Source: Metallococcus carri (GTDB lineage: Bacteria > Actinomycetota > Actinomycetes > Actinomycetales > Dermatophilaceae). Taken from it: 64,000 nt of DNA. The stretch covers positions 124,001-188,000 of the forward strand of contig NZ_JAAOIV010000001.1 of assembly GCF_011440275.1 (NCBI RefSeq), given 5' to 3'. Numbering within the stretch: position 1 is the stretch's first letter; each line of letters starts with the position of its first letter. Shown here in pieces: positions 34,548-43,242 of this stretch. Under the pieces are notes generated by a model. The model was not told the origin of the DNA and made no database searches. It saw only the letters and a list, made by a program, of their open reading frames with translations. The position numbers were made by a program, and so were the translations under genes.

Positions 34548-35720
<1,173 letters not shown>

Positions 35721-35771
35721 GTCGGCGACGTTATCGGGCCGGGCCGACAGCCCGCATGATGAACTGACCCC

Positions 35772-36884
35772 ATGCCACCGATCGAGGTCGAGACCGCCGA
35801 CCAGTTGCGCACCGTGCTCGCGTCCGGACGCAGCCTGCACGGCCTGCGCTTCCAGGATCTCGACCTGACCGTCTGTGAGAGCCAGTTGCTGGCCCGCGGC
35901 GACTTGCGTGGTCTGGTCGTCCTCGGCGGCCAGTGCTCGCAGCGGCTGGAGGTCCACCTGCGCAGCCACGGTGCGTTCGTCTTCGCCGAAGACCCGTCGC
36001 TGCCGATCGACACCTACCGGGCCCACCTTTACACCTACCGCGACCTGTATGCCGGGCTCCCCGACCGCGGCTATCCCACCACTCCGGACGCGCGCGCCTA
36101 TGCGTGGTTCAAGGACCCCTCGGTGGCGCAGGACGCCTACATCACCCTGCAGCGTGCGATCCATGACGACGGCATCAGCGACGCCTTGCGCGAGTTCGCC
36201 GACGGACGACTGATCGTCGGCATCATGGGCGGTCACGCCGTCGCCCGCGGGACGACGGAGTATGCCGACACCGCTCGGCTCGCGCGCGACCTCGCCAACC
36301 GTGGCTTGGGGATCGCTACCGGTGGTGGGCCGGGGGCGATGGAAGCCGCCAATCTCGGTGCGCTGCAACGCGATTCGGCCCAGCTCGACCTTGCCCTCAC
36401 CGAGCTGGCAAAGGTTCCGGACTTCCGGCCGAGCATCGACGCCTGGGCCAAGGTCGCCTGGCAGCTGCGCGATCGATGGGGCGACGCGGTCGACGAGGCC
36501 GCCTCACTCGGCATACCGACCTGGTTCTACGGGCACGAGCCGCCCAACCTGTTCGCCGGAATGATCGCGAAGTTCTTCAGCAACGCCCTGCGCGAGGATC
36601 TGCTGCTGCAGGTGTGCACCGGCGGCATCATCGTGATGCCCGGCGCGGCCGGCACGGTGCAGGAGATCTTCCAGGCGGTGACCCCGCGCTATTACGCATC
36701 GCCCGATGTCCCGCTGTCGCCGCTGGTGCTGGTCGGCCGGCGCCAGTGGACGACCGACGTGCCGGTCTGGCCGGCGCTGCAGGCCCTCGGTCAAGGCTCC
36801 CCGCTCGGCCCGGTGGTGCACCTCGTCGACTCACCGGCCGAAGCAATCGCGGTGATCGCTCAGGCGGTTGAGGCCGCCAGCTGA
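35772..36884 (+). CDS. LOG/TIGR00730-like Rossmann-fold protein
   Basis: The 370-residue protein has an N-terminal extension of about 150 residues and a C-terminal Rossmann domain of the LOG type, with IVGIMGGHAVARGT and LGIATGGGPGAMEAANLGA. The family PGGxGTxxE motif appears as MPGAAGTVQEIFQ, with alanine replacing the second glycine. Canonical LOG proteins are cytokinin-activating phosphoribohydrolases; this longer form is of unknown function. Its last eight codons lie inside a 25-bp repeat that recurs at the end of rlmN. Confidence 0.82.
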   Translation: MPPIEVETADQLRTVLASGRSLHGLRFQDLDLTVCESQLLARGDLRGLVVLGGQCSQRLEVHLRSHGAFVFAEDPSLPIDTYRAHLYTYRDLYAGLPDRGYPTTPDARAYAWFKDPSVAQDAYITLQRAIHDDGISDALREFADGRLIVGIMGGHAVARGTTEYADTARLARDLANRGLGIATGGGPGAMEAANLGALQRDSAQLDLALTELAKVPDFRPSIDAWAKVAWQLRDRWGDAVDEAASLGIPTWFYGHEPPNLFAGMIAKFFSNALREDLLLQVCTGGIIVMPGAAGTVQEIFQAVTPRYYASPDVPLSPLVLVGRRQWTTDVPVWPALQALGQGSPLGPVVHLVDSPAEAIAVIAQAVEAAS

Positions 36885-37134
36885 TGTCTCCAGGCGATGC
36901 CGCCAATCCGGACACCTAGCCCAGCACCAAGCAATGACATCAGGGAACGCTAGGAGCGGCTCTTCATGGCGATCATGGTGGACATAGGTCGGCCGCGCAT
37001 GAGGCGGCAGCGATGACAACAGCCGACGGTCGTATCGCTCCATCGTGACGTCGCGATCGAACACCAAATGCGCGTCGGTGGCGTCGATCCGTGCAAGAAG
37101 CGACTTGAGCTCACGCCGACGGACGACGTAAGGA
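36831..37134 (-). pseudogene. C-terminal remnant of an unknown gene
   Basis: Between the convergent LOG and rlmN genes, the minus strand encodes about 80 residues with strong coding character (YVVRRRELKSLLARIDATDA, RPTYVHHDRHEEPLLAFPDV and IAWCWARCPDWRHRL) but no start codon or upstream part. The frame continues from the rlmN shadow frame and stops at 36831 inside the LOG gene. The piece lies between two near-identical 25-bp repeats. I do not recognise the parent family. Confidence 0.5.
36860..36884. repeat. 25-bp direct repeat, left copy
   Basis: This sequence matches 37135-37159 in 24 of 25 positions (T at 36869, C at 37144). It contains the LOG-gene stop codon. Internally it has a GGCGG/CCGCC dyad. 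Confidence 0.8.
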
Positions 37135-37159
37135 TCAGGCGGTCGAGGCCGCCAGCTGA
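37135..37159. repeat. 25-bp direct repeat, right copy
   Basis: This second copy contains the rlmN stop codon on the minus strand. Removing one copy and the 250 bases between would leave LOG and rlmN as convergent genes overlapping by exactly this repeat, which suggests an insertion that duplicated a target or attachment core. Confidence 0.8.
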
Positions 37160-38298
37160 CCGCAGGCCCCGTCGATGTCCGAGCCGCGGGTGTCGCGGAT
37201 CGTCGTCGGTATGCCGTGCGCCCGCAGCCGCTCCACGAACTGCTGCTCGACCCCGGTGCGGGAGGCGGTCCACTTCGACCCTGGGGTCGGGTTGAGCGGG
37301 ATCGGGTTGACGTGCACCCAACCCTTGCCACGCTGAACCAGCTTGTCCCCCAACAGGTCCGCTCGCCACGCCTGGTCGTTGATGTCGCGGATCAGGGCGT
37401 ATTCGATCGACACCCGGCGACCGGTCGCGTCGAAATAGCGGCGGGCGGCATCGAGCGCCTCGTCGACCTTCCAGCGGGTGTTGATCGGCACCAGCTCGTC
37501 GCGCAATTCGTCGTCCGGGGCGTGCAGGCTGAGCGCCAGGGTCACCGGGATGCCCTCGGCTGCGAGCTTGTCGATCGCCGGCACCAGCCCGACCGTCGAC
37601 ATCGTCAGGCCGCGAGCGCTCATGCCCAGGCCGGAGGGCACCGGGTCGACCATCCGGCGGATCGCATTGACCGCCTGCCGGTAGTTCGCGAGCGCCTCGC
37701 CCATGCCCATGAACACGACATTGGACACGCGCAAGGCCTGGTCGCCGTCCTCGCCGCCGCCACCGGCGAGGGCACCATCACGCAGCATCCGTCCGCCGGC
37801 GACGACCTGCGCCACGATCTCGGCAGTCGTCAGATTGCGGGTCAGACCCTCCTGCCCGGTGGCGCAGAACGGGCAGTTCATCCCACAACCCGCCTGACTG
37901 GAGATGCACATCGTCACCCGGCCGGGGTAGCGCATCAGCACCGACTCCACGAGAACTCCGTCGAACAACCGCCAGACCTGCTTGATCGTGCGTCCGTCGT
38001 CGGCCTGCACCGAGCGCACCGGCGTGAGCAACTGCGGCAGCAGCGCACCGACCAGTTCCTCGCGGCCGTCCTTGGGCAGGTCGGTCATCGCCGCGGGCTC
38101 GTCGACCAGATGCTGGAAGTAATGGGTCGAGAGTTGCTTGGCCCGAAAACCCTTGTGCCCCAAGGCTTCCACTGCTGCCTTGCGGCCCGCGTCGTCCAGA
38201 TCGGCGAGATGCTGCGGGGGCTTCCCGCGCCGCGGCGCGGCGAAGGTCAGCTGCCCCGGGGCGGGACGTAGCGCGGGTTCGGGCAGATCAGTCGGCAT
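37135..38298 (-). CDS. rlmN: dual-specificity 23S rRNA/tRNA adenine C2-methyltransferase
   Basis: RlmN is a radical-SAM enzyme that methylates A2503 of 23S rRNA and A37 of some tRNAs. The 387-residue protein has the cluster motif CxxxCxxC in [45 protein letters not shown], and the catalytic C-terminal cysteine near [14 protein letters not shown] 38298 lies seven bases after the cdsA stop. It is the last gene of pyrH-frr-cdsA-rlmN. Confidence 0.97.
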
Positions 38299-38305
38299 GC
38301 AGCAC

Positions 38306-39193
38306 CTAAGACACGGGAACGAACGGAGTGAGCACGGCCCACACCACCGGCACCGCGATGACGAGTGAGTCGAGCCGGTCCATGATCCCACCGTGGCCGG
38401 GGATGAGGTTGGACATGTCCTTGATCCCCAGGTCGCGCTTGAGCATCGACTCACACAGGTCGCCGATCGTCGCGGCCACGACAACCAGCACACCGAGGAT
38501 CGCACCGACCCACCACCGGCCCTGCAGCAGGTAGTGCACCGTGAGCGCGCCGCCGACGACGGTGAACAGCACCGAGCCGGCGAAACCCTCCCAGGACTTC
38601 TTGGGCGACACCGTCGGAGCCATCGGATGGCGGCCAGCGACGACGCCCACGGCATACCCGCCGATGTCCGAACAGACCGTGACGACCACGAAGGTGACCA
38701 CCCGCCAGGGCCCGTCGTCGGCCTGCAACAACAGCATCGCGAAGGACACCAGCGCGGGCACATAGAGCGTGATGAACGCGCCGCCGGCGACATCCGCGGC
38801 GGCATCGCGCGGATCACCGAGCGAACGCCACGCGAGGATCGCCAGCACGACCAGCAGGACCGCCGGTGCCAGCGCCTCTGCACCGAAGAAATAGGCGACG
38901 GGCGGCACCACGGCGGCACCGGCCAGGGTCGGCACCGCGGGCGGGGTGATATCGCGTTCGCCCAGGGCGCGCAGGAACTCCCAGGCGCCGATCACCGAGG
39001 CGATCGTCGCGACGACGACGAACAACTCTTTGCGCCAGAACAGCGAGCCGACGATGATCAGCCCGAGCAGCGCGCCGGTGCCGATCGCGGCATACAGATT
39101 GCGTCCCGCCCGCGGCGTGGGGTTGATCGCCACCGGACGGGCCGCCCGCTGCGCCCGGCGCTCGCCGCGGGTGGGGGTGCCCTCGGAGGTCAT
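38306..39193 (-). CDS. cdsA: phosphatidate cytidylyltransferase
   Basis: The enzyme makes CDP-diacylglycerol for phospholipid synthesis. The 295-residue protein has about eight membrane helices and the family signature near the C-terminus: [20 protein letters not shown] followed by GIMDRLDS. A charged 28-residue N-terminal tail precedes the first helix. It starts six bases after the frr stop and belongs to the conserved translation/lipid operon. Confidence 0.96.
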
Positions 39194-42952: not shown

Positions 42953-42975
42953 AACAGAGGTGTTACACGCCGTGT

Positions 42976-43242
42976 CTTCTGGCGTCTTCCTCACACTCCG
43001 CTCCGGCCGCCGACTCGCTCCGCTCGCCGACAACCTTCGCTGCGTGTTTCGTCAGACGCCACACCTTCTGACGTCTTCCTCACACTCCGCTCCGGCCGCC
43101 GACTCGCTCCGCTCGCCGACAACCTCCGCTGCGTGTTTCGTCAGACGCCACACCTTCTGGCGTCTTCCTCACACTCCGCTCCGGCCGCCGACTCGCTCCG
43201 CTCGCCGACAACCTTCGCTGCGTGTTTCGTCAGACGCCGACC
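42976..43242. repeat. three tandem copies of an 89-bp unit after tsf
   Basis: Units start at 42976, 43065 and 43154, with only a few differences. Each holds GAGCGGAGCGAGTC on the minus strand and a hairpin AGACGCC-N9-GGCGTCT across unit junctions (perfect at 43143-43165). The tsf stop codon and last codons (43230-43242) form the edge of the third unit, so the unit appears to derive from the tsf 3' end and its trailer. No spacer structure is present, so this is not a CRISPR array. Confidence 0.9.

Follow-up and report, generated by a model that had tools for sequence, protein, structure and literature searches.

A 250-bp fragment of a DUF3800-like gene between 25-bp direct repeats at a convergent LOG–rlmN junction in Metallococcus carri

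The repeat pair and the convergent gene ends

The window analysed here is a 64-kb stretch of the draft assembly of Metallococcus carri (contig NZ_JAAOIV010000001.1, positions 124,001 to 188,000), in which two genes converge on a short piece of unrelated DNA. On the forward strand, the LOG-like gene (35772..36884; 370 aa) is assigned to SLOG cluster 4 by its match to PF18306 (32.4 bits; cut-off 26.3). On the opposite strand, rlmN (37135..38298), encoding a 23S rRNA methyltransferase, consists of 387 codons (37138-38298) followed by the stop codon and matches PF04055 and PF21016 above their cut-offs. Two direct 25-nt repeats, at 36860-36884 and 37135-37159, agree at 24 of 25 positions (96%), are spaced 275 bp apart and enclose a 250-bp spacer (36885..37134). 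Copy 1 encodes the end of the LOG-like gene in the sense of the forward strand (AQAVEAAS*), and its last base is also the last base of that gene, whose TGA stop codon occupies 36882-36884. Copy 2 encodes the end of rlmN on the minus strand (QLAASTA*), and with its stop codon at 37135-37137 rlmN ends on the first base of this copy. A T/C difference at 36869/37144 is the only one between the copies and, as read from the sequence, leaves the encoded amino acid unchanged in either frame. An earlier note on this DNA had claimed that near-identical 25-bp repeats hold the stop codons of both convergent genes, and this is confirmed. With up to three mismatches allowed, the 25-mer has two matches in the window and none in 100 shuffles; with up to two allowed, it has two in the whole 3.49-Mb assembly. 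There is accordingly no third copy in the window (up to three mismatches) or in the genome (up to two).

The junction was compared with 91 loci containing an rlmN end, drawn mainly from the same family with a few from other families of the order, in a search from which genomes very near the window's own may have been left out. At 60 of these loci rlmN ends in QLAASTA*, QLAAATA* or QLAATTA*, and copy 2 is therefore taken to be the native rlmN end. The LOG genes of the relatives finish in different short tails, so that copy 1 is taken to be duplicated from the 3′ end of rlmN. A convergent LOG gene is present in the same stretch at 84 of the 91 loci. The gap between the two stop codons is at most 30 bp at 12 of them and 31–300 bp at another 10; the remaining 62 of the 84 junctions have more than 300 bp between the stops, so other DNA is common at this position. 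The best example of an uninterrupted junction is locus L092 of genome G009, one of the 12, where the matching rlmN end is present once, agrees with copy 2 at 22 of 25 bases and is located 17 bases past the LOG stop codon. Beyond that stop, the LOG frame of G009 reads AQAVEAAN*, in phase with the AQAVEAAS* of the window; the computed LOG–rlmN gap of −25 at this locus is an artefact of reading through the LOG stop. Comparison of these sequences, all from genomes outside the genus, supports an ancestor with a single copy at the convergent junction. The uninterrupted single-copy junction that the earlier note had suggested looking for in relatives therefore exists, and its proposal that both genes once ended convergently within one ancestral copy is borne out by G009 and by the 12 of 84 junctions of at most 30 bp. 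At one further locus (L264:11813-11884, genome G140), the 3′ end of rlmN is tandemly duplicated between the LOG gene and rlmN, with a spacing of 36 bp and 22 of 25 bases shared and no insert.

The spacer and its intact relatives

The 250-bp spacer forms 83 stop-free codons on the minus strand. The open reading frame that contains it matched no family in Pfam, NCBIfam or PHROGs, and the fragment itself does not match the DUF3800 profile (PF12686); its link to DUF3800 runs through its relatives. A protein search across the family recovered relatives in 7 of 186 genomes, and wider samples gave 34 of 396 from the order and 31 of 394 from the class, each count including the match of the own genome to itself; a weak match among them, in G168 (L099), looks spurious. 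Relatives were also found in 39 plasmid records and in two phage records, both of the phage Gaia, and none was found in the viral contigs searched with the fragment. On an Arthrobacter plasmid, one full-length relative carries the annotation DUF3800 and matches PF12686 (23.1 bits; cut-off 21). Three other relatives have no Pfam match, the proteins of phage Gaia and of L195 do not match PF12686, and PADLOC gave no match for the full-length relatives L094 and L097.

The relatives are approximately 170–200 residues long, and in the alignment the fragment corresponds to about residues 85–165. The nearest relatives, in G871 and G757, are 49% identical and align to residues 4–82 and 6–82, respectively, of the 83-residue fragment. 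Homology to the interior of the gene therefore comes within 3–5 codons of one repeat and about two codons of the other, and because it runs nearly to both repeats, both junctions truncate inside the gene. By the alignment, counted by eye, about 80–90 N-terminal residues and roughly the last 7–12 are missing. The earlier note had described the spacer as the C-terminal end of an unrelated gene. The gene is indeed unrelated to its neighbours, but the piece is internal and in frame, has both ends cut and belongs to the latter half of a DUF3800-like gene. The search for a donor returned only the spacer itself in its own genome and nothing closer elsewhere than the 49% relatives. The GC fraction is 0.62 in the 250-bp interval that best covers the spacer versus approximately 0.66–0.72 in the other intervals of 35500-38500. 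We regard the source family as unusual and the gene as foreign and probably mobile.

Several genomic neighbours of the intact genes were recorded. In three genomes of one genus, the DUF3800-like gene has a tyrosine integrase encoded upstream on the opposite strand (L200:132-1127, L202:3-1016 and L205:132-1202); that of L200 matches PF00589 (88.5 bits), and those of L202 and L205 were found by tblastn at 88–90% identity. These three, all of one genus, are the only ones among 40 loci searched with six query proteins, two of which (L236 and L239) were selected for a motif and are perhaps not genuine integrases, and distant integrases may be missed by such a search. A general association of the gene with integrases was accordingly dropped. 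A recombinase is annotated near a relative on one plasmid. In two genomes of one genus, the gene and the structured element described below are located just upstream of cas3 (L094:1222-3220 and L095:1232-3220; cas3_HD, 87.4 and 78.0 bits, cut-off 43.45).

A structured element downstream of the DUF3800-like genes

By reading, a conserved element was recognized about 10–90 nt past the stop codon in all 16 relatives with an extracted gene end (of 29 loci). The model built from 13 sequences contains 14 pairs, nine of which show pairing-preserving changes on both sides. Pairing is possible in 89.6% of the cells of the alignment compared with 75.0% in shuffles and no more than 55.5% on sliding the alignment, figures that are to be read with the fact that the structure was derived from the tested alignment itself, which favours structure. 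Compared with 500 shuffles, four of five measures were reached by none and the number of further pair types was reached by 26, on an alignment typed from stretches chosen by eye, with L198, L201 and L207 omitted. The model finds the element behind the gene at 27 of the 29 loci with E below 1e-4, the loci used to build it included; the exceptions are L188, where the match is weak (E 0.09), and L099, which has no element. Outside the model it was found behind the gene at 2 of 2 and 9 of 9 loci, which brings the overall figure to 38 of 40. Order-wide, 86 of 396 genomes match at E<=0.01, the weak matches probably arising by chance, and the match in the window's own genome (23.8 bits, E 0.002) is counted among these.

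The covarying two-hairpin element (e.g. L195:1809-1878, with 37 other loci, none of them in the window) occurs on chromosomes, on a plasmid and in phage Gaia. At the spacer it is absent, the only match in the window being elsewhere (50165, E 0.62). Since the element normally stands just after the gene, its absence here indicates that the end of the gene is really missing from the spacer.

No Rfam family matched the element, whether in the 11 loci searched at gathering scores or in the eight searched at E<=1. RNA motifs associated with DUF3800 are known: the accessible part of one report names the Rfam motifs DUF3800-I and -IX, with RF02968 and RF02969 (PMC11701678), and that of another notes links to noncoding RNA together with an RNase H fold (PMC10910872), a fold also noted in the accessible part of a third (PMC12669027). 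The intact relatives of the spacer resemble these systems in being DUF3800-like with a structured element adjoining the gene, and differ from the known cases in that the element is unmatched by Rfam in the loci tested and has its place immediately 3′ of a short gene of actinobacteria. In the literature on DUF3800, judged mostly from titles and abstracts, we found no description of the element. It would be at most a further member of the DUF3800-associated kind of RNA motif, and the gene and its 3′ element are a candidate RNA–protein pair that can be tested. What may prove of lasting value is the source family, whose short DUF3800-like genes in actinobacteria turn up on plasmids, in a phage and next to cas3. 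The G206 locus (L097:790-907) also matches Ms_IGR-7, an sRNA family of actinobacteria (47.4 bits; gathering score 45).

Origin of the insertion

The feature in the window resembles a scar left by an insertion or by the repair of a break, and events of this kind are ordinary. The reading that we tentatively favour, at close to an even chance, is that a foreign fragment was captured at a staggered break, with fill-in copying the 25 bp and Ku/LigD doing the joining. In the ancestor, the LOG-like gene and rlmN would have stood face to face, with 25 bp common to both ends. A double-strand break with staggered ends may have opened this 25-bp overlap, and fill-in of the single-stranded ends would have copied it onto both sides. 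A stray 250-bp middle of a DUF3800-like gene, presumably brought by a plasmid, a phage or another visitor, would have been joined in, and the likeliest agent is a Ku/LigD end-joining system, which this genome seems to encode; repair by template switching could have left the same scar by another route. The scar would have been tolerated because both genes kept their stop codons.

A staggered break with fill-in explains the duplication and both gene-internal junctions in a single event. As expected of an end-joining scar, the empty single-copy site is found in relatives (L092 of G009, and the 12 of 84 short junctions), the insert is an arbitrary internal fragment, and the genome contains genes for non-homologous end joining (NHEJ): Ku was identified by profile (PF02735, 177.6 bits), and the open reading frames beside it were read by eye, with no profile, as LigD ligase and polymerase domains. 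Because both junctions sit inside the gene of the fragment, no possible element end is left in the spacer. That neither the spacer nor the 25-mer has further copies in the genome also speaks for capture.

Comparable events have been induced experimentally. In Streptomyces ambofaciens, the accessible part of the report on I-SceI breaks describes five insertions at the healed sites, ranging from 30 bp to 18.8 kb and including 30 bp of a transposase gene; the authors link such integration to NHEJ (PMC5869714). The likeness is that an actinomycete equipped with end-joining genes took distant DNA, part of a gene included, into a break; the difference is that the inserts there came from the strain's own DNA, whereas the donor here is not in the genome (PMC5869714). 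The fill-ins described are of 1–4 nt, and the accessible part of the report does not mention a 25-bp duplication; beside these a stagger of 25 nt is long, which argues against capture (PMC5869714). The tandem rlmN-end duplication of G140 fits fill-in without a captured piece, and simple slippage is also possible. That each stop codon coincides exactly with an end of the duplication would be explained under capture only as chance plus selection, and the exact fit is explained neither by capture nor by the integration of an element. The scar is one more natural case of bacteria gaining pieces of foreign genes without homology and, if it did arise by break repair, it would be the field counterpart of the events induced in Streptomyces.

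The earlier note had instead read the locus as an integrated element that duplicated its core and was then mostly lost. The foreign insertion and the 25-bp duplication are supported; an integrating element with a core site is not, as neither an integrase nor a terminus was found. Spelled out, an actinomycete element would have used the rlmN 3′ end as its attB, duplicated a 25-bp core, restored rlmN and decayed to a scrap of a cargo gene. We consider this unlikely but a serious contender. Gene-restoring att cores often end at the stop codon of the target gene. Here, too, the rlmN stop codon bounds the repeat, as would suit such a core, direct repeats stand at both ends with one completing the target gene, and the DUF3800-like relatives keep company with plasmids, phage Gaia, tyrosine integrases (3 of 40 loci) and the recombinase on one plasmid. 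Actinomycete integrative elements (AICEs) are reported to insert into conserved genes and to decay to scraps between direct repeats, and AICE03 is inserted in rlmN of Streptomyces RLB3-6 (PMC9513070). The present locus shares with these the rlmN target and the end state of direct repeats around gene scraps; it differs in the length of the repeats, 11 nt in AICE03 against 25 here, and in that the decayed AICEs keep partial integrases and cargo, while here there is neither an integrase nor an element end (PMC9513070).

Against this history, no terminus, integrase or excisionase sequence was found between the repeats, an interval that the DUF3800-like fragment occupies nearly throughout, and element ends (arm sites, xis, terminal genes) are lacking beside the repeats. 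A deletion would further need to have stopped a few codons short of each repeat. Inserts with a copy of the rlmN end on either side were seen at none of 67 relatives' loci (80 fetched minus 13 without rlmN) and at none of the 91, sets that overlap in genomes and whose stretches, of about 12 kb at most, would miss longer elements. The full element with an integrase that the earlier note had thought might stand at the junction in relatives was likewise absent from both sets, and its other suggestion, that the 25-mer might recur in integrated elements, fared no better, the exact 25-mer in both variants occurring in no viral contig. The best ungapped second matches to the rlmN end were 22/25 in L264 (the tandem duplication), 21/25 in L252 and 20/25 in L255, L261 and L137. 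That of L252, 10.8 kb from rlmN at the edge of another long open reading frame, and the three 20/25 matches were judged to be chance by reading and not by a test. A 60-bp rlmN-end query matched 39 phage and 81 plasmid records; the best 20 of each were short and mostly weak, and the rlmN end as an att site of phages or plasmids was set aside. In the accessible part of PMC11983580, an rlmN-like gene figures as a resistance gene and not as an insertion site. We therefore hold, with modest confidence, that capture at a break is more likely than a decayed integrated element.

Improbable, in our estimate, is a target-site duplication left by an unrecognized transposable unit, the 250 bp being an internally deleted copy. 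An AT-richer insert flanked by 25-bp direct repeats would suit it, as would the DUF3800-like gene and element of L195, which are 83–91% identical to those of three genomes of the same genus while the flanks, short repeats apart, are unmatched. Yet no inverted repeat joining the two ends of the spacer was found, both ends are gene-internal, and flanking repeats around 26 DUF3800-like units show no general excess over 650 mismatched-flank controls. The single case with 21-bp repeats, around the L195 unit, was rejected as a mark of duplication, since these form a dispersed repeat with further copies in that genus. Still more doubtful is the bolder version, in which the DUF3800-like gene and its 3′ element would be a mobile RNA–protein unit that makes a duplication of about 25 bp at gene ends, with the window holding a decayed copy.

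A misjoin mediated by the repeats, by which a foreign 250-bp piece was misplaced during assembly, is very improbable. The assembly is a draft of 23 contigs, but the locus is well within a 518-kb contig, the repeat copies differ at one base, the spacer is found nowhere else in the assembly and both genes are intact. That the repeats are ancestral paired terminators of the convergent genes, the outcome that the earlier note had named as fatal to its own reading, was rejected as barely credible: a GGCGG/CCGCC hairpin is possible within either copy, with a stability slightly above that of shuffles (z −1.8 and −1.3), but no terminator-like site is present in 36700-37300, the folding z-scores of 46-nt stretches are near zero, single-copy junctions exist, and copy 2 is coding sequence that is also conserved in relatives, where the only second copy found was the tandem one of L264.

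Direct repeats were also scanned in 464 kb, comprising 20 genome stretches of 20 kb and the window. The scan gave 68 pairs at the threshold, most of them in tandem arrays as judged by reading, without formal classification. In the window, a 99-nt unit occurs three times in tandem at 42962-43238, with a spacing of 89 nt and 92–94% likeness. The genome contains several such short arrays with periods of about 40–130 nt (L216:2711-2997, L217:18226-18600, L228:1-290 and others), one unit of which is GAAACCCGACACAATGTCAACTTTCC, and by reading some units come back in more than one stretch of the genome.
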